Positions 14,914 to 54,650 of a DNA stretch of 64,000 nt are shown here, piece by piece. The position numbers were made by a program, and so were the translations under genes. Below the pieces are notes generated by a model. That model was not told where the DNA came from, searched no databases, and worked only from the letters and a program-made list of their open reading frames with translations. The stretch spans positions 1 through 64,000 of the forward strand of contig JAETTM010000016.1 of the NCBI GenBank assembly GCA_021769135.1, written 5' to 3'. Position 1 is the first letter of the stretch; the number at the start of each line of letters is the position of its first letter. This DNA is from Lachnospiraceae bacterium. GTDB taxonomy: Bacteria; Bacillota; Clostridia; Lachnospirales; Lachnospiraceae.

Positions 14914-17900
14914 ATGAAGAAGTCGTTTGGTAAATTGGGGAAAAAAGGATTTACGCTGGTAGAGCTTACAGTGGTTCTCGTAATTATAGGGATACTTGCG
15001 GCTATCGGGATTCCTACCGCAATGCATTTTATCAAAAAAGCAGAATACCGCAAAAACGAAGAGAACGCGAAGACGGCTTATCTGGCGGCGGAGTCAACGC
15101 TTACCTGGTATCGTTCCTCCGGGAAGTGGGAGGCTTTCCGGGAGCAGGTGATGGCAAAGGGCGTATTAAATAATACGTTCCCGGCAGGGGATGAGAAGGA
15201 AGGGCGCATCTATGCGGTATCGGTGAACAACTGGGACAGCGCCGCATCCGCTTCCCATGAGCAGGCCATGAAGCTGCTGGACGGAGGAGTATACAGCGAA
15301 GACTTTTTTAACGCCGAGATTGTAATAGAATTGGATGTGGAATCAGGGCAGGTGTATTCTGCCTTTTATGGCACGCGCTGCAACAGCCTGACCTACAGTG
15401 AGACTACGGCTGACGGTGAGCGGTGCATCAGTGCGGCAGGAAACTGGAGGGAGCCGGATACTCGCAAGGAAGTGGTGCTGGGCTATTACTCCGTGGAAGA
15501 CGTAACCAATGTGGTGGAGTTAAAACAGGTACGCCTGAAGGTGACAACCATTAATCTGATAAACAGCGAAACGTTGTCTTTGAACTGGACCAGCAATTCC
15601 AGGAACGATAACCTGGATGTAAAATATTTGATTACCTTTTATCAGAAAGACGAAACAGGGGATAAGAAACTGTTTACCACAGAAGTGGAACTGAGCGAGC
15701 TGAGGGGCCAGCTGGAAACAGTGCCGGCGGCGGATGCAGGGGTCTCCACGAAAACGGGGATGGTAAGCCTGGAAGTAAAGGACCCCAACGCGGCGGATGC
15801 TTCATGGGGGAAATGGGATTTCCCGTTGACCTATCAGCAGACAGGCGGCTCCAGCGGCAGGTTTTCCCTGGTGCTGGACGGCATGATGACGGCGGAGCTG
15901 GCGGAAGTGGTGGAAGCGAACAAGGGAGATGGAATTTCCCCTTCGGAGGTGACGCGAAAAGCCAGCACAAGCATTACCAGGCTGGGGGCAGTAGTACCGG
16001 CCCTGAAATCGCCGCAGGATATTTATGCAGAAATATTGGTGCAGCCGGCTTACAGGGAGATTAAAGGGGAAGACGGCACAACCATCGCGATGAACATTAC
16101 CGAGTATAAACCCAGCAGCCCGGTGCGTTCCAATACGGAAAATACATTATTTGCCAAAGCGGGCATGAAGACCCAGACGGGGGAGGACGGGCTGGAAGCG
16201 GAAATCACCCGGTTCCGCCACCTTTCCAATATCCGTTATTATGACCCGAAGAAGACGGCGGTATTTACCCTGGCCAGCAGAAACCTGGACTGGACTTCCA
16301 CAGGGGTAGGGATGTACGGCATTTCCCAGAATGCGACAGGGGAAGGCGGCGTAGACCCCGACTATAGAAAAGTGAAGTGGAGCAGCGTAGCCACTGAGGA
16401 TAAAATTTTGGATTTCCCTTCCATTCCTTTGCTTGGGGAAAACCATAAACTGGAAGGAAAGAAGGGGATACAGGCCCAGCTGTCCAATCTGCATCTGGGC
16501 ACCAGCTCTATGCCTGACGATGAGCAGATAAGGAAATTATATGCTGGAGCCAGCAGCGATAAAGCAACCCATTATCTGGGATTGATTTGCGAAGCGGAAG
16601 GACAGATAGAGGAACTGACGCTGTTAGACCCGGTGCTGCGCCTTGTGGCAGGCAGTGACGGGGCGGGAAATACAGGCGGAGCAGATGGCGGCACGGGCAG
16701 CGGCGACGGAACAGGCAGTACAGGCGGCGATGGAACAGGCAGCGCGGGCGACGAAACAGCCAGAGTGGGTGAAACGGCAGCGGATATTCCGGAGGCGGCG
16801 GAGAACTTCGACGCTTTATATGGCGTGGGAATCCTTTGCGGCAGGAATCAGGGAAGCCTGAAGAATATCAATATTAAGACGACGGAGCGGGAACACCAGA
16901 CGGTGTTAGTGCGTTTAAAAGACAGGGAAGAAGAGATTTCGGAAACAACAGGAGAGACAAAGAAACCGGCTGGCATTGGCGGCCTGGTTGGCGTGCTTGC
17001 AGGGAAAAATGATGACGGTTCTTTGGAGGAACTGACGGATGCGGCCAGGATTACTTTGAGCGGCCTTACTACGGAAGGCAAGGTTACAGGATATCTGCCC
17101 AGCCCGGAAGGAAACTCCGGTGCGGGAAGCGCTAACCCTGGCACAGGTACGGAAAGCGCCAACCCCGGCGGCGCAGCGGGCATAACCGCAAAGTCCGTAG
17201 AGGAACGGGCCAAAGATTATACATATGGCATCGGCGGGATTTTTGGCTATGCCTGGATTGGGAAAGATGCTGCGAGCGGGAATAATGTACAGCTGGTAAA
17301 ATGCACGAACCATGGGGATGTGAACGGCAACCTTTTCACGGGAGGAATCGTGGGCTCGCTGAAGGGCGATTTTGCCACAGGAACTACGGATGTAGTCAGC
17401 ATCAAGGATAGCTTTAACGATGGGCTCGTGCTTTGCCTGGTGGACTATGAAGAAGAGGATAACAGGCTGGAAGGCCGTTATTTCGGCGGTATTCTGGGCT
17501 ATGGAGAAGGGGCGCAGATTAGCAACGGAGTCAATGCATCCCAATATCGGGAGGAATTTAACGATACGAAAAAGGATAAGCTGCTTCACGGGCATTACGT
17601 GGGCGGTATTATCGGCTATGGGAGCAACAGCCAGCTTTCCGGGTGCAGCACCCGGAAAGGAAGCTATGTCCTGGGTTCCCATTACGTAGGCGGCATTGCA
17701 GGAGGATTGTCCAATGACCTGGCAGAGGCAATTACAGGGGGAACAGGAACGGCGGGCATCCAGGTAACTACCAATGGGGGATATGTCATCGGCGACCGCT
17801 ATGTAGGCGGAATTGTGGGCAAAAATGACGGCTCGGAAACAACGACAATAGCGAACTGTATTAACAACGGCGTGGCTGCGGGCTATGACCGTTATATCGG

Positions 17901-20900
17901 CGGCATTGTAGGTTATAACGGAGCTCAAGGAGTTATTAGCGATTGTGCCAGCTATTTTTCCGATTACGGCGGTTTTGTATTCCAGGTAATCGTGGATAAA
18001 TGGAAAGCTACCGGAGACTGTGCCGGAGGCTTGGCAGGATACAATAATGGCAGCGTGGTGTTTAACGGGGAAAGCCAAAGCATCCAGGTGAAGTCCATTT
18101 CCAGCATTGTAGTAGGAAGAAACTACGTAGGCGGTATTATCGGCTTTAACGATAGAGACGGCGAGATGGATGTTTATTATACATTGATTGGCGGCCAGAT
18201 TCATGGATACGGCAATGGGGTGGGCGGCTGTATCGGTCTAAACGCTTCCAGTCAAATTCTGGAGGAGGAATTGACCATCCAGCCCACCAGCGTTGAAGGA
18301 AATTATTATGTGGGCGGCTGCATCGGGGCCAATGTAGTGGATATAGGGTCAGATACGGCAATGACTAAGGTCAAGGCGGATAACCGTCTGGGTGGTATTA
18401 CGGGAAATGCATTTACCGGCGGCCTCATCGGATATCAGAGGACCTATACGGACGCACAGTTGAAGGTTGAACTTAACAACGCCAATCCGGACTGGCTCAA
18501 TCAGGCGGGCGAAAGCGGCGCGGCTGGGAACGGTTCCTCCGGACAGGGGATTTTTGGGAAAGATGACAAACTGCTTTTGATTGCCTATATAGAGGGGATG
18601 GAAGAAGCAGCTCCCAATGGAGATAATACTTCCAATGGAGATACCGCTTCCCAAGGGAATGAGTCTGTAAAAGGAACGGCAGGAAAGCTGTTGCCTTTGC
18701 TGGACGGGAATAATGTGCCCACAAAAGTAATTGTTTCGGAAAACCAGAAAACTTTTACCATTGGAAACAGGACGAATAATAAAGATAGAGAGCAGGACGA
18801 ATATAACAATATTCCGGTTTATTCCGACCTTTATACGGGTGGGATTGTAGGATATTGCGAGAGGGAAAGCCGGATGCATATCGTAAACGCCAGGAACTCC
18901 GGCAATTTATCCAGAGGCTCCCTGGGAGAAGGCGTGTCCTTAAAGGCGTATCTGGAAAGCAAAGAATTGGATGCGGATATTAAGGAACTGGAAGGGGATG
19001 ACCTGAATCTGGCGATTTCCATCGGCGGCGGTATCATTGGCGCCAATCTGGAAAACCAGGTTATCGACCACTGCATCAATACGGGAACAATGAACGGCTT
19101 TATCGGGCTGGGCGGCATCGTAGGATTCAATGCGGGCGGCGTATTCAACTGTCAGCTTTCCGACAACTTCGGGAACCAGGGGCTGAATTATATAGGCGGT
19201 ATAGCGGGCCTGAACGTGCATGCGGGCGGGGCTAATGAAACGGCGGACGGCATCGGCAGTAAGACCAGCATTTATCTGGATGTAAAAGGCACTACATGGA
19301 ATGGCTTTGTATCCGGAACAATCGCACAGTGCAGCACCCAGGAGAACAGGAATGTTTCCGGCCGCAGCTATGTGGGCGGCATCGTAGGCTATAATCTGTC
19401 AGGGGCGGAAATGAAGTCCAATGAAAACAACGCCAATGTGGCAGGGGCTGGCAATTATGTGGGCGGCATGGCCGGAGCCAACAGCGGCAGCATCCTGGTG
19501 GCGGAAAACAGCAAGACTAATCCGGAGGAATATACCATTACCGGAAATAATGGGGAAGGAATCGGGGGTATTGTCGGGTGGAATAAAACAAGCGGCAGCA
19601 TTGATGTGGCAGGCAATGATGGTGCAGGCAATAAGGATGGGGAAATTGTTGCTGTGGGCGCCAATGTGAGCATCACCGGAAAGCAGAAGGTGGGCGGTAT
19701 TGTCGGCATCAATGAAGGGAAATTGGATGCTTCCCGAAATGAATTAGGAGAAGAAAGTTTTTTAGTATGTAAAGCCAAGACAGTGCATGCTGCCGATGGT
19801 TACGCAGGAGGCATTATCGGCGAAGCGAGAAGAAAGTCAGGAACAGCCGGGGATGGAAAAATAGCAAACGCAATCAACAAATCCATAAATGTTACCGCAG
19901 ACCGGGGGCCGGCAGGCGGCATCGTGGCGGTGAACCAGCAGGGATTCCAGCTGGAGAACTGTATAAATCTGGGGAATGTTAACAGCGATAATGGTTATGC
20001 GGGCGGTATCTCTGCCGAGAACTATGGCCTGATTGTAGAGTGCAAAGTAGGCGATGGAAGCAGGGAAGAAGTGGGAATAACCATTAGCAGCCGGGGAACG
20101 GATGCCATAGGGGCAATTTGTGCGGTGAACCATGGCATCGTTTGGAAAAGTGCGCCTGAAAAGTCGCGAAAAGATGAAAATGGTAATACAGTAGCCCTTT
20201 CTGGCACATCGAGGATAGTAGGCGGTATCGCCGGGCTGAATGCGGCCGGAGGAAAGATTGGGATAGTGCCGGTAGAAGGAGACACAAATAATGAAAAATA
20301 TGTGATGAATTATATGCCCGGCATAAATATAACAACCGCTGCGCTGACCGTAGGCGGGGTGGCCGGACAGAACCAGTCCGCAGTGCCCGGAGGAACGGAA
20401 ACAACGGAAGGCGGAGAACAGATAACAGTTGAGCCGAAACAGGCGGCAGTGATACAGAACGTGACGGCGGAAGGCATGGCCTTTAATGACTTCAATAATT
20501 ATCAGTATTTAGGCGGCATAGCTGGGGAAAACCAGAATGGCGCCCTGGTAGAAAACTGCATTTTTTCAAACGGGGAAATCGGGCAGAAAAACGGAACCGC
20601 AGCAGGGAACTGCTATGGCGGCGTGGCCGGAATCAATGATGGCAATCTGCAAAACTGCCGGATTGAAGGTATAACAATAGATGTACAGGGCATTTATACG
20701 GCCACAAGTACGAGTACGGCATCGGAAAAAGAAAATCTGGCTTCCCATATCGGCGGGATTGCCGGGAAGAATGAGGAAAACGGCGTTATTATGGGATGCC
20801 TTATCGCAATGGGCAAAGATGCGGACGGTAAATCCAAAGCTAACAGCATAACAGTGGCCAACGGCATGTCAGGCGGCGTGGCTGGGTATAACAAGAATAA

Positions 20901-23900
20901 AATCATGCTGTCCGGCGATGAAATTACGGACGCATTGATGGAGAAGCAGACTGGAGCGGACGGGAGCGTCAGCGCAGGAGTGATGGATGTACAGACCCTG
21001 ATTGCAAAGGCGAAAGAGAATGGCATAAAAGCAGATGCAAATTATGTGAACTGGGATGCAAATGGGGAGTTGGAGAACCAGAAATATAATAATACAGGGA
21101 ATCCGGTCAGCGCAGGCAGGAATTTGCAGCTGATTATGTCCAACAACGGCAACCTGGGCGGTATTACCGCATATAATGCGCCTGCAGGCGAAGTGAGTTA
21201 CTGCGCTACAGGAAACTGGTATCTGAATAATAAATCCGAAGCCATCGGCGTAGGAACCGGCGGTATTATCGGTATGAACGAGTCGGAGAAGAGCCTGGCT
21301 TTCCTGTTAAACCAGGCGTTTGTGGGGAGGCAGCTTTTGCCAAAAGGAAAGAATGAAGGTACTGACCGTTTTGCCGGAGGTATTATTGGAAATCAGAACA
21401 ATACTACTAACAGCGGCTGGATGATACAGAATTGTGTAAATTATGGAACTATATATTGCAAATACGCCCATTATTCAGGCGGCATTCTTGGTCAATGGAC
21501 AGGAACGGGTGGAAATATAGAGAAATGTTATAACTTTGGAAATTTGCAGACCACTCAGGTTGTTGACTGGCTGGGGGCAGCCAGCGGTATTGTGGCTCAG
21601 CTTTACCATGCCTATGAGAATAATGAATATAACATTATTGGTTGTGGGAATTATGGGAGTGTTTATGCCAGGAGCGGACGCAGCACCATGGATTGCGCCA
21701 ATGACAGTGCGGGCATATTGGGAAATGTTACGGCTTATAAAGTGAAGGCCGATAAGGCAGCGAGCGGGCAGAAATTTACAATTAATGTTATAGATTGTGT
21801 CAACGGAGCTGGCGTGGAGATTTATTCCCAATCAATGGCATCAGGAATTGTAGGGTTTTTATCTGCGGACAATCCGGCAGAAGACGGAAGGGAGGCAGAG
21901 GATAGGATTACGGCCTCCACTTCCAATATTATATTGAATATTGAAAGATGTAGGAATTATGCATCTACATTAGAGGGGAAGAATTTTATTGCGGGTATTT
22001 TTGGTGACCGCTATGGGGAAACCGGTTCGAAAAACACTACTTTGCAATATTGCTTCTCTGTAAGCCCAAGTAGCGGATACAATAAGGTGCCATTCCCGAT
22101 AATTTCATACTGGCATCCTAAGTATAAGGAATATGCACAATTTATTAATCCAGGAGATAGCAAAGTTTACAATTTCTTCCTGGCGACCAGCGATGGAATC
22201 AATAGTTTTCCGGGGAATACGTTTAACAATAATATTACATCTAACGGGGATACACTAATAAGGGCAAATGCAGGCTGGGTTTATAGTGTGTTGAAAAATG
22301 GTATACGATATTTTGTATACATCACAGAAACCGGATTTACCAGCGATTATAATATTAATAATTGGGAAATACTTGGAACAAATTATGGAGCATCTGTACT
22401 CAACGTCAGCAAAACTCCAATAGGAAAAGTCCTTTTTGCCATAGAAGAAAGCACGGATGTTAATAAATATAATAGCATGAACGCTATAGTATCAAGAGGT
22501 AATGATTTTGATTACTTCGATAATTTTGATACTTATGTACGCGAATTCTGCTTCACCCAGGCCGGATTATTGTTGGCTCCGGAGAAAGCTGTTTTGTCAA
22601 AAACTGACGACGGACAGTTCACGTTGGAAGTAGATGCGCCCGCATACGCTGCTGATGCGGGGAACATTGAGTATGTAGCGACTCTATGGAGAAAAGCGGA
22701 TGACGGAACGGAAACCCAAATCAATGTAAGCGAAATGGAGAATCCGGCAGACAGCGGAATTACGGTAGACTTAGGTACAAATACCTTCCTGTTCGATTCG
22801 GAAACATGTACTTTCGGCCTTTCCGATAATGCAATACAAGACGGCGGAGAATTGTTTATAAGATTAAAAGCCAGAGAAAAGGGTACAGCTATGGAATCCG
22901 CTGAAGTGGAATCCAACAGCGTTCCGATAGGCAGCATATTGCCTGAACCGAAACTGAGAATTGAGTTGGTGGCCGAATCTACAGGAACGGGCGGCACCGG
23001 GTATAAGTACCGTTTCCGCTTGGCGAACCCGAATGCGTATAAAGATTATAGTGACCTTAAGGCGCATGTGAAGCTGATGGATGGAACGGAACTTACATTT
23101 GATATAAATGGTACAAATGATACAGCCAACTATAATTTGGCGGCGGATTCCCTTCAACAGCTGGTAGTATGGGTAGCAAAACCAGCGGCTACACCGGGAG
23201 CGGGGATGTCTTCGGCAGAAGTATCAGTACCCGTATATCTGCCTTGTTATACACCGCCTATTGCAGTAAATGGGAATGGGGTGACCAAGCCTTCCTGTGA
23301 AGTATCGGGCACCAGCCTGAAAGACCTGGCCGTTACGGTAACTTTAACAGGGCCGGAAGGGAGCGTTACGACCCCGCCCATTTACCGGGCAGAATTAGTG
23401 GGTACATGGACAGGGCCGGATGGTACGAAGCATGAAAATTATGTATTCCAGACCGCTGATATCCTGACCGTAGCCAGCGGTGAAGTAAAGGCAGTCTTTA
23501 CAGACTTCGCAGATTCTGCGGATTTGCCGGAAGAATTTGCCGGTGCGGAAGATATCAAGGTTCGCGTATGGTATGCCCAGTCCGGATTAGGTCCTGTTTA
23601 CACCTATTATATGGACTTGAGAAAGGGAGAGACAGCGAACACCCGGACAAAAGAAACCATAGACGGTAAGGAAGAAGACGGCCCTCAGTGGCAGGATGCT
23701 TATACCTGCGTACTGGAAGACGGCACCTTTGCAAATTACAGATGGGAGTCGGGAAAATTATTTGAATGGCTGCCTGCCCCTGTTTTGATGACAGTAGCGG
23801 ATGGTAAGAGCCTGACACCGGAAATCGACAGCAATAATGGGCATTTGAAGTATACCTTTAAATGGGATGAACTAACAGCTAATAATAATGACTACATCGT

Positions 23901-26763
23901 AACGCTGACAGGCACTGTCATAGATGAAGCGGGTAATGAAGGGAACCCGGTTTCCATCGTGACGGATATGGAAGTGAATGGACAAAATACACTTACCCTT
24001 GATGCGGAAGACTGGCCATATCAGAAAGTGGAGCTTTTCGTGACCAGAAAGGGGTATAAACAGACAAACGGAACAACGGAAACTATTTATATAGGAAGGA
24101 CTTCAACGGAGACATATTCGGTAAAGAAAAGGCTGCCCAGGCCAGAACAGCCGAAGGTGACAAACCCGGATGTGAATGAATTGAGCTACGAGCTCGAATG
24201 GAGTCCGGTAACGCCGGAGATAGGGCCGGATGCAAGCCAGCAGAATATCGGCTGTACATCCTATGAAATTTATATCCGTCCGGTGATGCCCAGTGTACCT
24301 GCCATCCCGAATGAGGAAATGCGGAAAACGGTAAAAGTATGGAATGACGATGGCACTTCTAACGTTACGCCGGAAGGAGTTTATCGGGAACTGATTGATT
24401 TAGAAGATTATGCCGGTAAACAGATATTGATTTCTATAAAGGCGATGGCGGCGGACGATGATGAAGTTTATGTCCACAGTGTGGACGGCATAACCTATGA
24501 ACTTACCGTACCGGAGAGGATTCCTACACCTACAATAAAAGAGTGGGAAAAGAACTGGAAACATGAACCTGATACGATTATTGACCCGGATAATCCAGAT
24601 AACCCAAGTAATATATATGAGACGAAATCCATCGAGGAATTCGAGGAAGGCGGCGAAAACGGGTTAAAAGTTACGCTGACAGCGGCGGATACGGACAGTA
24701 TCCCGCCCGGCGGCAGCAGTTATCTGACGAAAGCTTATGTATTTGAAACAGCAGCTGATGCCGAAGCAGCCCAGCAAGCGTTGATAAACGGAACAGATGT
24801 GGATATGGATACAGTAGTGGCTTATTATCCGTTATTGAATGCAGAGAATCAATGGATTCCTGCAGGCATGGAGCCGGAAGGAGGCAGCCAGGACAAATTC
24901 AGCCATACCCTTACTGGGCTGTCGGCAGAATATGCGGGCAAGTATATCCTGTTCTCCGCCAGGATTTCCTCCGGCGGAGGAAAGGTGAGCTCCGAATGGG
25001 TGGTACAGCAGGGTACTACTAATCCCGATGCTTTCATCTGGCGGCTGCCCTATGTGAAACTGCCTACGCCGGAAGTATCGGTGGAAAACGGCAATCGCGA
25101 AGTAGAGGTAACCTTCACTGTTAATCCGGACTTTGGTACTACAAGCAGCGTGTCCTTGGACGATTCGGAAGAGATAGTAGAGGATTCGTCAGCCAACGGC
25201 ATTCCGGTGCCGGGAGAAGAAGTAAACGGTGCAGAAAACGGAAATACCGGAAGCATTGGAGATACAGGAAATAGCGCGGACGCTGGAAACAGTGGAGATA
25301 CCGGAAGTGCTGGGGATGCCGGAAACGGCGGAGATAACGGAAGCAGTGGAGCCGCTGGAAACGCCGGGGAAGCCGGAACAGCCGGAAACGGCGGAGATAC
25401 CGAAACCGGCGGAAACGCTGGGGAAGCTGAAACTACCGGAACCAACGGAACTACCGGGGCTACCGGAAATACCGAGAATACCGAGAATACCGGGGAAAAT
25501 GCGGATTCTTCAGAATCTGGCGCTGCTGGCGGAAATGCAAATGAAGCGGCCGGTACAACAGAAAATACAGGAAATGCCGATGCTACGCCAGAAAGCACAG
25601 GAAACACGGACATTGCCCGAGCAAAAACCAGAAGTTATGCGGCAAATACAGCGGCGGGCAGCAAAGCTTCTACCGTAGAAGGAAATGGGCTGGCGAGAAG
25701 AAATACGCTTATGGCGGCGGAAAGGATGAGCGGCGGCTTTGCGGCAAGCGAAATGATTTACAGAATGAGCAGTTCGGTAGCCAATAACATCACTTTCATG
25801 GCAGCTGCTGCCAATACCGGCAGTATCGATGGAAGCCGTGGTAACGCGGCTGCGCAGCCCACAGATGACAGCACAGACCCGCAGCCGGAGAATGGCATTA
25901 CGCAGTCTGGAAATGACAGTGCGGAGCCGCAGCCGGAGAATGGCATTACGCAGCCCGCAGATGACGGCACGGAGCCGCAGCCGGAAAATATTGTTACACA
26001 GCCTACAGATGATGGCACGCAGTCCACAGATGCCACAAATTCGACCGTGGATGGCACAGGCTTGCAGATAACCAGTCAGGAACTGCAGGCAAATGACATA
26101 GCTCCCCAGGCCGATGACGTACAGAAGAATGAGACTTGGACGGCGGAAAATACCGTACTTTCCTGGAGCAGCGTAGAATATGCGGATGCCTACTATTTCA
26201 CCCTGACGGATGTGGATGGAGCGGCTGACGGAAGTGGAAATGCGATGACGGCGGAATTCAAGATAGTAGAGAAAAAAGATGAAACTGACCCTTCTGCCAC
26301 CACTGTAACCGTATTTGGGAAAGATGCCGCAGGTTCTAACCAATGGGAAGAAATTGCCGAAATAGCAGAACCGGATTTGAGTGCAGGAATAGATATAGAT
26401 TTATCCCAGGATGGGGCAACGTTCCAGACCTACCATAAAGTGGTAAGCGGAATGTATGCGGTAGACAGTTCAACAACCATACCTTATGAGGTGGATTTGA
26501 AGACCATCCTGAATATAACCATGCAGGACGGAGTATTTACCTACACATTGTCTCTGCCGGACAGCAACAGCCTGAATCCACCGGCGGACAGCGCATACGC
26601 ACTTGAAGGGAACAGCATTGTCAACAGCAACAGCGATAAACTGCGCTTCACGGATTCGGTGCGCATCTGGTCGGATATGAGTGTGAATGATGATGCAGAT
26701 CAAGCTAATTGGAGCGAGGCTTATGTGAAGTCAGTGGAATACGTGGCAGAATTTAACAATTAG
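14914..26763 (+). CDS. Giant type IV prepilin-like protein (3949 aa) with many GLUG-type repeats; putative pilus-associated adhesin
   Basis: N-terminal prepilin signal KKGFTLVELTVVLVIIGILAAIGIPTAMHFIKKAEY; dozens of GGI(V/I/A)GYN-type motifs; then repeat-poor beta-rich-looking segments, an N/T/G/A/E-rich linker and PQPENGITQ repeats. Confidence 0.88.
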   Translation: MKKSFGKLGKKGFTLVELTVVLVIIGILAAIGIPTAMHFIKKAEYRKNEENAKTAYLAAESTLTWYRSSGKWEAFREQVMAKGVLNNTFPAGDEKEGRIYAVSVNNWDSAASASHEQAMKLLDGGVYSEDFFNAEIVIELDVESGQVYSAFYGTRCNSLTYSETTADGERCISAAGNWREPDTRKEVVLGYYSVEDVTNVVELKQVRLKVTTINLINSETLSLNWTSNSRNDNLDVKYLITFYQKDETGDKKLFTTEVELSELRGQLETVPAADAGVSTKTGMVSLEVKDPNAADASWGKWDFPLTYQQTGGSSGRFSLVLDGMMTAELAEVVEANKGDGISPSEVTRKASTSITRLGAVVPALKSPQDIYAEILVQPAYREIKGEDGTTIAMNITEYKPSSPVRSNTENTLFAKAGMKTQTGEDGLEAEITRFRHLSNIRYYDPKKTAVFTLASRNLDWTSTGVGMYGISQNATGEGGVDPDYRKVKWSSVATEDKILDFPSIPLLGENHKLEGKKGIQAQLSNLHLGTSSMPDDEQIRKLYAGASSDKATHYLGLICEAEGQIEELTLLDPVLRLVAGSDGAGNTGGADGGTGSGDGTGSTGGDGTGSAGDETARVGETAADIPEAAENFDALYGVGILCGRNQGSLKNINIKTTEREHQTVLVRLKDREEEISETTGETKKPAGIGGLVGVLAGKNDDGSLEELTDAARITLSGLTTEGKVTGYLPSPEGNSGAGSANPGTGTESANPGGAAGITAKSVEERAKDYTYGIGGIFGYAWIGKDAASGNNVQLVKCTNHGDVNGNLFTGGIVGSLKGDFATGTTDVVSIKDSFNDGLVLCLVDYEEEDNRLEGRYFGGILGYGEGAQISNGVNASQYREEFNDTKKDKLLHGHYVGGIIGYGSNSQLSGCSTRKGSYVLGSHYVGGIAGGLSNDLAEAITGGTGTAGIQVTTNGGYVIGDRYVGGIVGKNDGSETTTIANCINNGVAAGYDRYIGGIVGYNGAQGVISDCASYFSDYGGFVFQVIVDKWKATGDCAGGLAGYNNGSVVFNGESQSIQVKSISSIVVGRNYVGGIIGFNDRDGEMDVYYTLIGGQIHGYGNGVGGCIGLNASSQILEEELTIQPTSVEGNYYVGGCIGANVVDIGSDTAMTKVKADNRLGGITGNAFTGGLIGYQRTYTDAQLKVELNNANPDWLNQAGESGAAGNGSSGQGIFGKDDKLLLIAYIEGMEEAAPNGDNTSNGDTASQGNESVKGTAGKLLPLLDGNNVPTKVIVSENQKTFTIGNRTNNKDREQDEYNNIPVYSDLYTGGIVGYCERESRMHIVNARNSGNLSRGSLGEGVSLKAYLESKELDADIKELEGDDLNLAISIGGGIIGANLENQVIDHCINTGTMNGFIGLGGIVGFNAGGVFNCQLSDNFGNQGLNYIGGIAGLNVHAGGANETADGIGSKTSIYLDVKGTTWNGFVSGTIAQCSTQENRNVSGRSYVGGIVGYNLSGAEMKSNENNANVAGAGNYVGGMAGANSGSILVAENSKTNPEEYTITGNNGEGIGGIVGWNKTSGSIDVAGNDGAGNKDGEIVAVGANVSITGKQKVGGIVGINEGKLDASRNELGEESFLVCKAKTVHAADGYAGGIIGEARRKSGTAGDGKIANAINKSINVTADRGPAGGIVAVNQQGFQLENCINLGNVNSDNGYAGGISAENYGLIVECKVGDGSREEVGITISSRGTDAIGAICAVNHGIVWKSAPEKSRKDENGNTVALSGTSRIVGGIAGLNAAGGKIGIVPVEGDTNNEKYVMNYMPGINITTAALTVGGVAGQNQSAVPGGTETTEGGEQITVEPKQAAVIQNVTAEGMAFNDFNNYQYLGGIAGENQNGALVENCIFSNGEIGQKNGTAAGNCYGGVAGINDGNLQNCRIEGITIDVQGIYTATSTSTASEKENLASHIGGIAGKNEENGVIMGCLIAMGKDADGKSKANSITVANGMSGGVAGYNKNKIMLSGDEITDALMEKQTGADGSVSAGVMDVQTLIAKAKENGIKADANYVNWDANGELENQKYNNTGNPVSAGRNLQLIMSNNGNLGGITAYNAPAGEVSYCATGNWYLNNKSEAIGVGTGGIIGMNESEKSLAFLLNQAFVGRQLLPKGKNEGTDRFAGGIIGNQNNTTNSGWMIQNCVNYGTIYCKYAHYSGGILGQWTGTGGNIEKCYNFGNLQTTQVVDWLGAASGIVAQLYHAYENNEYNIIGCGNYGSVYARSGRSTMDCANDSAGILGNVTAYKVKADKAASGQKFTINVIDCVNGAGVEIYSQSMASGIVGFLSADNPAEDGREAEDRITASTSNIILNIERCRNYASTLEGKNFIAGIFGDRYGETGSKNTTLQYCFSVSPSSGYNKVPFPIISYWHPKYKEYAQFINPGDSKVYNFFLATSDGINSFPGNTFNNNITSNGDTLIRANAGWVYSVLKNGIRYFVYITETGFTSDYNINNWEILGTNYGASVLNVSKTPIGKVLFAIEESTDVNKYNSMNAIVSRGNDFDYFDNFDTYVREFCFTQAGLLLAPEKAVLSKTDDGQFTLEVDAPAYAADAGNIEYVATLWRKADDGTETQINVSEMENPADSGITVDLGTNTFLFDSETCTFGLSDNAIQDGGELFIRLKAREKGTAMESAEVESNSVPIGSILPEPKLRIELVAESTGTGGTGYKYRFRLANPNAYKDYSDLKAHVKLMDGTELTFDINGTNDTANYNLAADSLQQLVVWVAKPAATPGAGMSSAEVSVPVYLPCYTPPIAVNGNGVTKPSCEVSGTSLKDLAVTVTLTGPEGSVTTPPIYRAELVGTWTGPDGTKHENYVFQTADILTVASGEVKAVFTDFADSADLPEEFAGAEDIKVRVWYAQSGLGPVYTYYMDLRKGETANTRTKETIDGKEEDGPQWQDAYTCVLEDGTFANYRWESGKLFEWLPAPVLMTVADGKSLTPEIDSNNGHLKYTFKWDELTANNNDYIVTLTGTVIDEAGNEGNPVSIVTDMEVNGQNTLTLDAEDWPYQKVELFVTRKGYKQTNGTTETIYIGRTSTETYSVKKRLPRPEQPKVTNPDVNELSYELEWSPVTPEIGPDASQQNIGCTSYEIYIRPVMPSVPAIPNEEMRKTVKVWNDDGTSNVTPEGVYRELIDLEDYAGKQILISIKAMAADDDEVYVHSVDGITYELTVPERIPTPTIKEWEKNWKHEPDTIIDPDNPDNPSNIYETKSIEEFEEGGENGLKVTLTAADTDSIPPGGSSYLTKAYVFETAADAEAAQQALINGTDVDMDTVVAYYPLLNAENQWIPAGMEPEGGSQDKFSHTLTGLSAEYAGKYILFSARISSGGGKVSSEWVVQQGTTNPDAFIWRLPYVKLPTPEVSVENGNREVEVTFTVNPDFGTTSSVSLDDSEEIVEDSSANGIPVPGEEVNGAENGNTGSIGDTGNSADAGNSGDTGSAGDAGNGGDNGSSGAAGNAGEAGTAGNGGDTETGGNAGEAETTGTNGTTGATGNTENTENTGENADSSESGAAGGNANEAAGTTENTGNADATPESTGNTDIARAKTRSYAANTAAGSKASTVEGNGLARRNTLMAAERMSGGFAASEMIYRMSSSVANNITFMAAAANTGSIDGSRGNAAAQPTDDSTDPQPENGITQSGNDSAEPQPENGITQPADDGTEPQPENIVTQPTDDGTQSTDATNSTVDGTGLQITSQELQANDIAPQADDVQKNETWTAENTVLSWSSVEYADAYYFTLTDVDGAADGSGNAMTAEFKIVEKKDETDPSATTVTVFGKDAAGSNQWEEIAEIAEPDLSAGIDIDLSQDGATFQTYHKVVSGMYAVDSSTTIPYEVDLKTILNITMQDGVFTYTLSLPDSNSLNPPADSAYALEGNSIVNSNSDKLRFTDSVRIWSDMSVNDDADQANWSEAYVKSVEYVAEFNN

Positions 26764-31061: not shown

Positions 31062-32261
31062 ATGCCAAATTTCCGCTATACAGCCAAAAGCATGGAAGGC
31101 AAAATCCAGAAGGGAACGATGGAAGCGGCAGGGGAGAGCGCCCTCCAGCAGATGCTGAAGGAGCAGGGCCTCTACCTTATCGAAGCCAAAGACGCCGTTT
31201 CTGCGAAAAAACATAAAAAACTTACTGCCAGACAGCTTTCTGAGTTTTCCAAGGAACTGTCCACCCTTCTTGCTTCCGGTGTCAGCATCGTCCGCGCGTT
31301 GGAAATCATCGCGGAGGAGGAAGGGATTTCGCCGGTAACCAAAGCCCTTTATCTGGATATCCTGGCGGAACTGAAACGGGGGCTTAGCCTGTCAGAGGCC
31401 ATGGAGCAGAGACAATGTTTCCCGGAACTTATGCTGGGGATGATTCGTTCCGGGGAAGGGAGCGGCAACATCGATGCTGTCATGAACCGTCTGGCCCTGC
31501 ATTATGAAAGGGAAAACCGGTTAAGGCAGCAGGTGCATTCGGCTATGACCTATCCAATGGTGCTGCTGGTGATGAGCATCCTGGTGGTGATTTTAATCGT
31601 GACCTTTATCCTGCCCCAGTTCGAAGAGCTTTTTGCGGAAATGGAAAGCCTTCCTGTGGTGACGGAAATATTGATGGGGATATCCGATTTCCTTGTGCAG
31701 CAATGGTACGTGGCGCTGTTAGCGGTATTTCTTTTGTTTATTATCCTGCGGACAGTGGGCAAGATTTATAAAGTGCGGCGCACTATCGATTATATTAAAG
31801 TACATATGCCGGTGGCGGGCAAGCTGAACAAGGTGATTTATACAGCCCGTTTTTCCAGGACACTAAGCAGCCTTTATTCCAGCGGCATGCCTATCGCACA
31901 GGCCCTGCAGACGGCGGGGGGAACGGTAGGCAACATCTATGTGGAAGAGCAGTTCGACAAAGTGATTGCTATGGTCCGCAGCGGTATCCCTTTATCCCAG
32001 GCGCTGCGGGAAGTGGATGGTTTTCTGCGCAAGCTTTCCAGCACTATCCTGGTCGGGGAAGAAAGCGGTCGTCTGGACATCATGCTGGACTCCATCGCCA
32101 TGACCATGGAAGAAGAAGCGGAAGCGGCCACCAAACGTTTAGTAACATTGCTGGAGCCCATACTTATCTGTATTATGGCGCTGGTGGTAGGCTTTATCAT
32201 CATAGCCGTTATGCTGCCGATTTACGAGTCTTATGGAGCGATTGAAGGCTCGGCATATTAG
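31062..32261 (+). CDS. pilC: Type II secretion/type IV pilus inner-membrane platform protein PilC
   Basis: MPNFRYTAKSMEGKIQKGTMEA...; ELSTLLASGVSIVRALEI; MIRSGEGSGNIDAVM; internal ATG behind GAAAGGAG. Confidence 0.93.
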   Translation: MPNFRYTAKSMEGKIQKGTMEAAGESALQQMLKEQGLYLIEAKDAVSAKKHKKLTARQLSEFSKELSTLLASGVSIVRALEIIAEEEGISPVTKALYLDILAELKRGLSLSEAMEQRQCFPELMLGMIRSGEGSGNIDAVMNRLALHYERENRLRQQVHSAMTYPMVLLVMSILVVILIVTFILPQFEELFAEMESLPVVTEILMGISDFLVQQWYVALLAVFLLFIILRTVGKIYKVRRTIDYIKVHMPVAGKLNKVIYTARFSRTLSSLYSSGMPIAQALQTAGGTVGNIYVEEQFDKVIAMVRSGIPLSQALREVDGFLRKLSSTILVGEESGRLDIMLDSIAMTMEEEAEAATKRLVTLLEPILICIMALVVGFIIIAVMLPIYESYGAIEGSAY

Positions 32262-32280
32262 ACAATATAAATAGTAAGGA

Positions 32281-32545
32281 ACTGGAATAAATACTGGAAA
32301 CAGCAAGTGCCCGGTAAGAGCCCCAGAGAATTTCATGGCTGCAAAGCAGACAGGAAATTGCTCTGCGTGGAGTTGGCGCTGGAAGGGCACTTGCGGAACT
32401 GGAATACTGAAAACAGCAGATATCCGGACAGCACCTCAGAAAATTTACGGATGCGAAAGCAGCCGGGAATTTTCTGCATATGAAAAGAGTTTAGGTGCTG
32501 GAAGGATATCTGCGGAACTGGAATAAATACTGGAATAGGAGAAGA
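32281..32545 (+). repeat. Two tandem copies (A, B) of a structured intergenic repeat ahead of pilMN
   Basis: Copy A stem 32303-32312/32385-32394 (GCAAGTGCCC/GGGCACTTGC); copy B stem 32416-32425/32504-32513 (GCAGATATCC/GGATATCTGC); each followed by GGAACTGGAATA. Confidence 0.8.
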
Positions 32546-32548
32546 AGT

Positions 32549-34186
32549 ATGAATCAGACAGTCATTGTTTTTTCAGAAGATTGTATATTGGCGGCATCGG
32601 GCAGGGAAGGGAAATATCCGGCCCTTTCCGGCGTAAAGAAAATCGGGCTGCAGATGCAGGGGGATTCCTTCGAGCGGTGGGGGCAGGCATTAAAAGAACT
32701 TCCCCGGGAATGGAAAGCAGGGCAGGCCCATCTGGTGCTCCCTGTAAGCATGTGCTCATCCAGGGTGTTGAAGCTGCCCTATGCGAAAGGAAAGCAGCTG
32801 GCGGATATGGCATCCAAAGAGATGGCGGACAGCTTCCGGAACGAAGTGGCCGATTACTCCATCGTTTCGGAAGATAAGAAAAATGGGGTGGATATTTGCG
32901 TAGGCGGCGTGGATTCCGGACAGCTGGACAGCTTTTGTTCTATTTGCGCGGATGTAGGCATTGCCGTTGGAAGCATGAGCATCCCTATGGAGGGTTATCT
33001 GCATATTTTGCAGCAGCTGGATAGTTATTATAACCGCACGGCCATCTACCTTTTCTTTGAAGAAGGAAGCATGATGAGCGTGCTCTGCCAGGATGGCCGC
33101 TACCTTTATTCCGGGCGCAGCCGCCTGTTCAGCGAGCCGGGAACTTTGGATTTCGGAACGGAAATCGTCCGCAGCGTTTCCGGTATCCTTCAATTTTACG
33201 CATCGGAAAAAAGGGAAAATCCCATTACGGATGTTTACTATGTGGGCTGCCCGGCCGGGGATTTTGAAGTGAGCGTGGAAGGCATAGAGAACATGAACCT
33301 GAAAACCGCCCCTATGGCGGTGAGCGAGAAAATTTCCGTTCCCCCGGGCCAGAAGGCGGCGGACTGGATTCCCTGTATCGGCGCTATGATGAAAAACAGC
33401 AGGGCGGAAAAAAGGATTGACCTTTACCGGGCGAATAAGAAGTTTTCCGAAAAAGGGGAAAAACAGCAGGGAATCGGAAAGCATCTGCTGTTTCCGGCGG
33501 CGGTATTTATCCTGTGCATGATTCCTACGATTATATTTTTCATATTAAATAGAATCACATTAAATGAAATCCAGAAGAAGCAGGAATGGATAGCATCCGA
33601 AGAAGTGCAGAGCCAATATAACCAGGCGATGGATTTGGGGCGGCAGCTGGCGGATATCGAGAGCAGTATTGCGGCGGTGGAACTGACCAGCCAGAATTTA
33701 TCCGTCTATCCGGAACTTTCCAATGATATTCTCCGCCAGATTGAAAATGCGGGAGGGGCGGGAATCGAGTGCCGGATTACCGGTTACGATGCCTCCACCG
33801 GGGTGCTCACCTTCCAGGCTGAAAGCCGGAAAGTCATTGACGTGCCGGACTATATATTGAAATTGAAGGACAGCGGACTATTCCATACGGTAAACTATAC
33901 CGGATACGATTACGATAATGAGTGGTATACCCTTTCCCTTTCCTGTGCGATGGAAGGGAAGATTTCCAAGCAGGCCCAGGAACAGGGGATTACCTGGGAG
34001 ACGAAGGAAACTCAGGGCGGAACCCAGGGGGCGGACGAGGCCCAGACGCAGGCGGGGCAGGAAGCCGGAAGCCAGGACGGGGCAGCTGTCCAGGAAGCAG
34101 ACGGGAGCCAGGATGGTGGAATAGCTGAGGAAGCTGGCGGAAGCCAGGATGCGGAAGGTCAGCTGCCGGAAGGAGGTACACAATGA
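32549..34186 (+). CDS. PilM-PilN fusion protein (actin-like PilM domain + TM + PilN-like domain)
   Basis: MNQTVIVFSEDCILAAS... PilM-like N-half; TM HLLFPAAVFILCMIPTIIFFILN, then PilN-like LNEIQKKQEWIASEEVQ...; position between pilC and pilO-like gene. Confidence 0.7.
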   Translation: MNQTVIVFSEDCILAASGREGKYPALSGVKKIGLQMQGDSFERWGQALKELPREWKAGQAHLVLPVSMCSSRVLKLPYAKGKQLADMASKEMADSFRNEVADYSIVSEDKKNGVDICVGGVDSGQLDSFCSICADVGIAVGSMSIPMEGYLHILQQLDSYYNRTAIYLFFEEGSMMSVLCQDGRYLYSGRSRLFSEPGTLDFGTEIVRSVSGILQFYASEKRENPITDVYYVGCPAGDFEVSVEGIENMNLKTAPMAVSEKISVPPGQKAADWIPCIGAMMKNSRAEKRIDLYRANKKFSEKGEKQQGIGKHLLFPAAVFILCMIPTIIFFILNRITLNEIQKKQEWIASEEVQSQYNQAMDLGRQLADIESSIAAVELTSQNLSVYPELSNDILRQIENAGGAGIECRITGYDASTGVLTFQAESRKVIDVPDYILKLKDSGLFHTVNYTGYDYDNEWYTLSLSCAMEGKISKQAQEQGITWETKETQGGTQGADEAQTQAGQEAGSQDGAAVQEADGSQDGGIAEEAGGSQDAEGQLPEGGTQ

Positions 34187-34811: not shown

Positions 34812-34960
34812 AAGGGCACTGGAAGGACACTTACGGAACTGGAAAAACAGTAAGTGGCCGTACAGTGCCCCCAGAGGATTTTCGGACGGCAACGTCCGGA
34901 AATAGCTCTGCGAGAAAGGGCACTGGAAGGACACTTACGGAACTGGAATAGAAGGAGGTT
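34812..34960 (+). repeat. Copy C of structured intergenic repeat (plus a partial 3' copy) ahead of pilB
   Basis: Partial AAGGGCACTGGAAGGACACTTACGGAACTGG from 34812; full copy stem 34850-34859/34929-34938; second stem CAGTGCCC/GGGCACTG (34863-34870/34918-34925); apical CGGACG-GCAA-CGTCCG (34883-34898). Confidence 0.8.
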
Positions 34961-48542: not shown

Positions 48543-48849
48543 CACGGAAATCAATTTTCATGGGCGGCGCAGCGTGAGGCCCCTTCTGCAGAACAGGATT
48601 TGGTTTGTCGGCCAGGCAAAAAAAACAGATTTCACTAATGAAATGGGCGAAATACTACGAAAGCGGACGGGTCAGAAGCCATGGGCATCCGTGCCCATGC
48701 TTCCTAAAACCGCCATCCATGGCGGTTTTCCCCTGGGTTCGAACCATTTCATAAGTGAAATTACTGCTTTTTTGCAATGGCCGACAAATCAAACGCTGTT
48801 CTGTAGAAGGGGTCTCACGCTGCGCAGCCCATGAAAATTGATTTCCGTG
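48543..48849. mobile_element. MITE-like foldback element (long imperfect inverted repeat)
   Basis: Left arm CACGGAAATCAATTTTCATGGGC-GCGCAGCGTGAGGCCCCTTCTGCAGAACAG...TTTGTCGGCCA matches the reverse complement of the right arm; flanked by direct ATTCCAT at 48536-48542 and 48852-48858. Confidence 0.7.
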
Positions 48850-50804: not shown

Positions 50805-50938
50805 GAAGAGAACTTGCGGAACTGGAAAAACAGCAAGCATCCGGACAATGCCCCGAAGAATTTCAGGACGCAAAGCGGCCGGAAATTGCTTCGCGATAAA
50901 GGGCATTGGTAGGATGTTTGCGGAACTGGAATAGGAGG
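50805..50938 (+). repeat. Copy D of structured intergenic repeat
   Basis: Stem GCAAGCATCC/GGATGTTTGC (50833-50842/50912-50921); CAATGCCC/GGGCATTG (50846-50853/50901-50908); then GGAACTGGAATAGGAGG. Confidence 0.8.
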
Positions 50939-54594: not shown

Positions 54595-54650
54595 AACAGC
54601 ATATTCCCGGAATGGCTTTTTATAGGAATATGCGGAACTGGAATAGGAGG
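54595..54650 (+). repeat. Copy E (shortened) of structured intergenic repeat ahead of ECF S-component
   Basis: AACAGCATATTCCCGG...AGGAATATGCGGAACTGGAATAGGAGG; stem GCATATTCC/GGAATATGC (54599-54607/54625-54633). Confidence 0.7.

Follow-up and report, generated by a model that had tools for sequence, protein, structure and literature searches.

A covarying hairpin repeat found in sense directly before Shine-Dalgarno sequences in Lachnospiraceae

What kind of element is the hairpin-forming sequence that recurs ahead of genes in this Lachnospiraceae contig: a translational regulator, an RNA-processing site, or a mobile repeat that brings its own ribosome-binding site? By sequence reading, the window (the whole 64,000-nucleotide stretch analyzed) contains five intergenic copies, four full units of 105–114 nt and one short unit (Table 1). 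All lie where an earlier note had placed them, with stems as it described; the exception concerns copy E, listed there as a full element, in which stem 1 is as described but only the 3′ linker accompanies it. Stem 2 of unit B is CAGCACCT/AGGTGCTG, and units A and C are additionally preceded by a leading partial copy. The window has 37 matches to the motif GGAACTGGAA at one mismatch or fewer (5.6 expected), a count reached by no shuffle. The first downstream protein has no counterpart in Pfam, and those after C, D and E are a T2SSE ATPase, a bPH_2 protein and a riboflavin ECF S component, respectively. The label pilMN, given earlier to the gene after A and B, is unconfirmed because that gene has no Pfam match, but a T2SSE ATPase does follow unit C. 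Of 16 genomes in the genus, only 3 were found to have the 545-amino acid protein encoded after A and B (32549–34183, plus strand). The window also contains an open frame of 3949 codons (14914–26763, plus strand).

Table 1. Repeat units and adjoining Shine-Dalgarno (SD) sequences in the window
Feature	Position	Strand	Basis or remark
Leading partial copy GGAACTGGAATAAATACTGGAA	32278..32299	+	exact direct repeat of 32514-32535
Unit A, stem 1 GCAAGTGCCC/GGGCACTTGC	32299..32406	+	covariance model 2.8e-25
Unit B, tandem to A, stem 1 GCAGATATCC/GGATATCTGC	32412..32525	+	covariance model 4.6e-24
SD AGGAGA, 545-aa gene starting at 32549	32537..32542	+	sequence
Leading partial copy, ~30 nt from the 3′ end of unit C repeated ahead of C	34815..34844	+	
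Unit C	34846..34950	+	covariance model 1.6e-23
SD AAGGAGG, T2SSE ATPase gene (start TTG 34965)	34952..34958	+	
Unit D	50829..50933	+	covariance model 8.2e-28
SD GGAGG, bPH_2-domain gene (ATG 50946)	50934..50938	+	
Short unit E, stem 1 and 3′ linker only	54595..54645	+	covariance model 3.3e-6
SD GGAGG, ECF riboflavin S-component gene (ATG 54659)	54646..54650	+	

A full unit is typically ~105 nt long. Its order is AACAGC, stem 1 (10 bp), an internal loop that is commonly CGGACA, stem 2, an inner helix (C-A-G-A-G), an apical hairpin (AATTT/GAAATT), the return arms, and the 3′ end GCGGAACTGGAATA. The termini are the most conserved parts, and both AACAGC and the linker GCGGAACT are near-invariant. 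The predicted folds of B, C and D are much more stable than those of shuffles (z of −9.0, −8.3 and −6.1), and A has a z of −3.4; the short copy E alone folds weakly (z −1.7), and the tandem A/B leader is predicted to form two hairpins.

The pairing of the stems is kept while their sequence changes. In the host alignment, which was not fitted to the covariance model, 95.4% of cells are paired versus 79.3% in shuffles, with both-side changes at 17 of 20 pairs. The two alignments that were fitted to the model, and so lean towards it, gave 91.5% versus 63.8% (85 units of other species, both-side changes at 20 of 20 pairs) and 92.4% versus 69.4% (99 units of model-chosen relatives, 19 of 20). The observed values were matched by no shuffle in any of the three, and pairing fell to 34–52% when the partner was slid by 1–3 columns. 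The model itself was made from 40 units picked by their end motifs, not by pairing. Mismatches are more often G-U than A-C (61 versus 16, p 2e-7), which favors folding of the sense strand, but part of this excess could stem from single-stranded DNA or strand-biased mutation. The compensatory stems proposed earlier are therefore borne out, with strong double changes in three alignments; together with the G-U bias and a near-fixed sense position before SDs, they argue for a selected structure.

Orthologous units show how stems differ between species. Unit B and its ortholog in genome G001 differ by a compensated T-A to C-G pair in stem 1, and the apical part is deleted in G001. The stems of orthologs often differ by blocks of several pairs, which could have arisen through palindrome correction or gene conversion instead of stepwise selection. 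In the parC leader of G000 (L133), the 5′ arm of the unit and a leading partial copy are perfect inverted repeats of each other over 21 bp, internal loop included, which suggests an alternative fold as well as palindrome correction from a template.

Searches of the host and its relatives revealed many more copies than the first five. The 4.43 Mb host genome has 102 matches to the 3′ motif GCGGAACTGGAATA at one mismatch or fewer, versus 3 for the reversed control, some of the matches being coding and some solo ends. The covariance model gave 92 matches there (E up to 0.01), of which the best ~86 group into 61 sites with 1–3 units each. Of 61 relatives searched, seven carry the family: 6 of the 16 from the genus, plus one from a different genus. 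In a family-wide sample of 397 genomes the element was found in 8 genera, all Lachnospiraceae by record title, and in an order-level sample of 395 genomes only the host was positive. The model searches, across 40 genomes, applied stricter filters and may overlook weak copies. Among the matches listed for an exact 19-mer in public species genomes are at least ~30 Lachnospiraceae assemblies, including strains 1XD8-76, D16-50, and 526-35. Carriers are mostly gut genomes, many of which we take, from strain or isolate names, to come from the rodent gut. High copy number is patchy, with at least 58 units in G002 and at least 61 in G009 (both from at most 64 scored candidates) and at least 26 in G001.

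Position and orientation are nearly fixed. At all 57 readable host sites (four at contig ends or in decayed sequence were left out) the unit is in sense, with a start codon on the same strand 7–62 nt after it (median 13). At a few of these, including C11 and C88, the automatic start differs from an obvious SD-spaced one, which alters the distance but not the strand. The sense orientation before genes noted in the window holds across these host sites. The three outcomes that the earlier note named as counting against its idea (random orientation, no covariation, an Rfam match) were each checked for, and none occurred. In other genomes, model-selected loci have a downstream frame at 58 of 63 sites; of the remaining five, an SD and ATG precede a short frame in two, the sequence turns into Ns in one, another unit follows at a contig end in one, and L070 is a true exception. 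Apart from this one clear exception, six other genera agree on the sense position. Loci of other species found by the 19-mer have a downstream start at 66 of 66 sites, a biased set since the 19-mer includes the SD. Nearly all sites have an SD after the 3′ end, at a varying gap, and some have extra bases in between. In the host, 33 of 57 sites have a same-strand frame that ends within 60 nt upstream of the unit, which very probably places many units inside transcripts.

The earlier note had the 3′ end supply or abut the SD; for purA, supplying it is wrong. The purA gene has a unit in G000, G002, and G004 but none in G001, G003, G009, G012, and others. In G001, ATGTGGAATTGGAATGGAGGATTTATTATG stands where G000 has the unit, and the same SD and spacer (GGAGGATTTATTATG) follow. 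The parC site of G000 has a unit; in G001 and G002 just the unit 3′ end is present, and in element-free species the SD follows a stop codon after a short gap. The native SD is kept at orthologous purA and parC sites that lack the element, which at the sites compared adjoins a native SD and does not supply one. Copies have been gained and lost between related species. Presence and absence in such close relatives fit the mobile repeat that the earlier note considered, although its ribosome-binding site is adjoined and not carried. Some orthologous genes retain a copy across species (ybaB in three).

Truncated copies retain the 3′ end, with solo 3′ ends at ~10 places. A core search gave 44 matches, and outside known units there were only three doubtful ones with 3 mismatches each. 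A partial GGAACTGG copy precedes the first unit in 39 of 56 arrays. We considered whether it is a duplicate of the 3′ end of its own unit, but the own arm is the best match for only 8 of the 39, so this is not the general rule. Other palindromes occur nearby: a different ~50-nt repeat (GTCCTAAGGAATCCACCAGGC...GCCTGATACCCCCTTAGGAC) lies within or beside several units as a nested insertion (L018, L044, L102, L106, L114, and L001), and a long palindrome (GGGAGAATGATAAAATCCTCC...GAGGATTTTATCATTCTCCC) lies between the upstream gene and the unit ahead of a dihydrofolate reductase gene (L024/L025), with a piece resembling it at L061.

Our preferred reading, tentative at a probability of roughly 0.45, is a proliferating, 3′-anchored repeat of mRNA leaders whose RNA fold keeps the SD open. 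Each unit, in sense directly 5′ of the gene's own SD, would be co-transcribed, often between two genes of an operon. The hairpin would be self-contained, absorbing its own sequence and leaving the 3′ linker and SD single-stranded. A copy beside an SD would then do no harm or help slightly by insulating the ribosome-binding site, and the position may tolerate and retain copies for that reason. The fold would be kept since arms left unpaired would bury the SD. New copies would be anchored by their 3′ end beside an SD through some copying mechanism, and arrays probably grow and shrink by recombination between GGAACTGGAA direct repeats. Predicted SD openness is 0.69 with the unit and drops to 0.61 when native upstream sequence replaces it (p 0.015) and to 0.575 when the unit is shuffled (p 6e-6). 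These modest, computed differences fit a self-contained hairpin that does not interfere with ribosome access and may slightly help it. Against the insulator step, the gain is small and computed, and stemless 5′-truncated copies persist, so not every site needs the hairpin. The near-invariant GCGGAACT hints at a sequence-specific partner, which a leader repeat of this kind does not need, and searches for copying machinery (Y1 transposase and RVT_1) found none.

It is possible, although on the unlikely side, that the family is a new kind of mobile element that seeks ribosome-binding sites, is copied 3′ end first, and has spread by virtue of a fold harmless to translation. If true, such a repeat could spread through the gene starts of a genome, and the question is how it finds ribosome-binding sites. 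An answer that dispenses with function is a selfish, non-autonomous element of the IS200/IS605 or REP type, read as single-stranded DNA and inserting 3′ of the antisense CCTCC. Such insertion would fix both orientation and the place before the SD, the stems would covary because a transposase reads their shape, and no target duplication would be necessary; the conserved termini and the high, patchy copy number also agree with it. We consider it unlikely. G001, with at least 26 units, has no match to a Y1 transposase, and G000 has only one match with an internal stop codon and one fragment. The extra bases between some units and the SD fit less well, and 5′-truncated copies are atypical of an IS200/IS605-like mechanism. 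Mobilization by reverse transcriptase was likewise rejected: unit-bearing G028 and G212 have no match to the RVT_1 model, the only one used. The mobilizer may have been lost or be of an unrelated kind, and draft genomes can miss genes. Plasmid or phage origin was discarded on 0 matches in plasmids or phages; the sole match in a viral contig is a bare 18-mer in unrelated sequence without the hairpin.

The downstream genes bear on regulation. Those with Pfam matches encode, among others, DNA topoisomerase IV subunit A, DnaG, FabF, and YbaB, and reading of translations adds adenylosuccinate synthetase, dihydrofolate reductase, DapA, and flagellar and sugar-metabolism proteins. Neither approach made a common function evident. 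These are unrelated housekeeping genes, so there is no obvious regulon, and a single regulon or riboswitch-like cis-regulator was rejected because they share no pathway or function. A looser arrangement, in which a protein or small RNA recognizes GCGGAACTGGAATA and the hairpin and co-controls translation of some 60 genes, would account for the near-invariant linker and AACAGC, the sense position next to the SD, and the copies kept at genes such as ybaB. We judge it improbable given the unrelated genes, the lack of the unit at the same genes in close relatives, and an SD that is not sequestered. CsrA was rejected as a partner: it has no match in the element-rich G002 and G009 and is present in nearly all element-free genomes. 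Of the translational regulator suggested by the earlier note, the selected structure is supported but a dedicated regulator is not, as the genes share no function and CsrA does not track the element. A module for RNA processing or stability, in which cleavage in single-stranded linkers gives the downstream cistron a protective 5′ hairpin, would suit the operon-internal positions and the tandem hairpins joined by short A-rich linkers, but truncated copies without a hairpin make it a poor candidate.

We propose that the leader repeat is a previously undescribed interspersed repeat, structured and restricted to the SD side of gene starts. No Rfam family matches the element: Rfam 15 at the gathering threshold gave only TwoAYGGAY in the window, away from the units, only weak chance matches at 32200–32600, and one tRNA and nothing else at 17 loci of other species. 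The TwoAYGGAY RNA (RF01731, 80.9 bits; 48616–48776, minus strand) belongs to an Rfam clan shared with RsmY. Our search of open-licence PMC articles found no description of the repeat. Bacterial interspersed repeats are usually viewed as scattered intergenic passengers; here a hairpin repeat occupies one functional position, and its RNA fold is kept while its sequence turns over. Genes with and without the structured leader form natural pairs for testing how an upstream hairpin affects translation.

REP/BIME, ERIC, and Correia elements occur in either orientation and in various intergenic places, and we know of no confinement of BOX, RUP, or SPRITE to the SD side of start codons. The family here, in sense and before the SD, is unlike the REP/BIME, ERIC, and Correia elements, from which it is set apart by description and not by sequence. 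Those elements are palindromic and transcribed and may affect mRNA cleavage or attenuation, as summarized in PMC3049150. Pneumococcal BOX, RUP, and SPRITE are small interspersed intergenic repeats with predicted RNA stem-loops, as here (PMC3049150). BOX is also modular and length-variable, as are our arrays. SPRITE resemble terminators, whereas our family has a near-fixed position and orientation. Marine Beggiatoaceae, Cyanobacteria, and Bacteroidetes carry direct repeats of a TAACTGA heptamer that likewise have many copies per genome, mostly forward, right before the start codons of unrelated genes, with patchy occurrence between lineages and a mobility mechanism that is not known (PMC4679880). 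They are 7-nt direct repeats that overlap the expected ribosome-binding site in genomes where SDs are rare (PMC4679880), whereas our units are ~105-nt covarying hairpins upstream of an intact native SD. The unit consensus and native SD do not have TAACTGA heptamers in the SD place. The TAACTGA repeat of Beggiatoaceae is the closest positional match to the family, and BOX and RUP are the closest structural matches.
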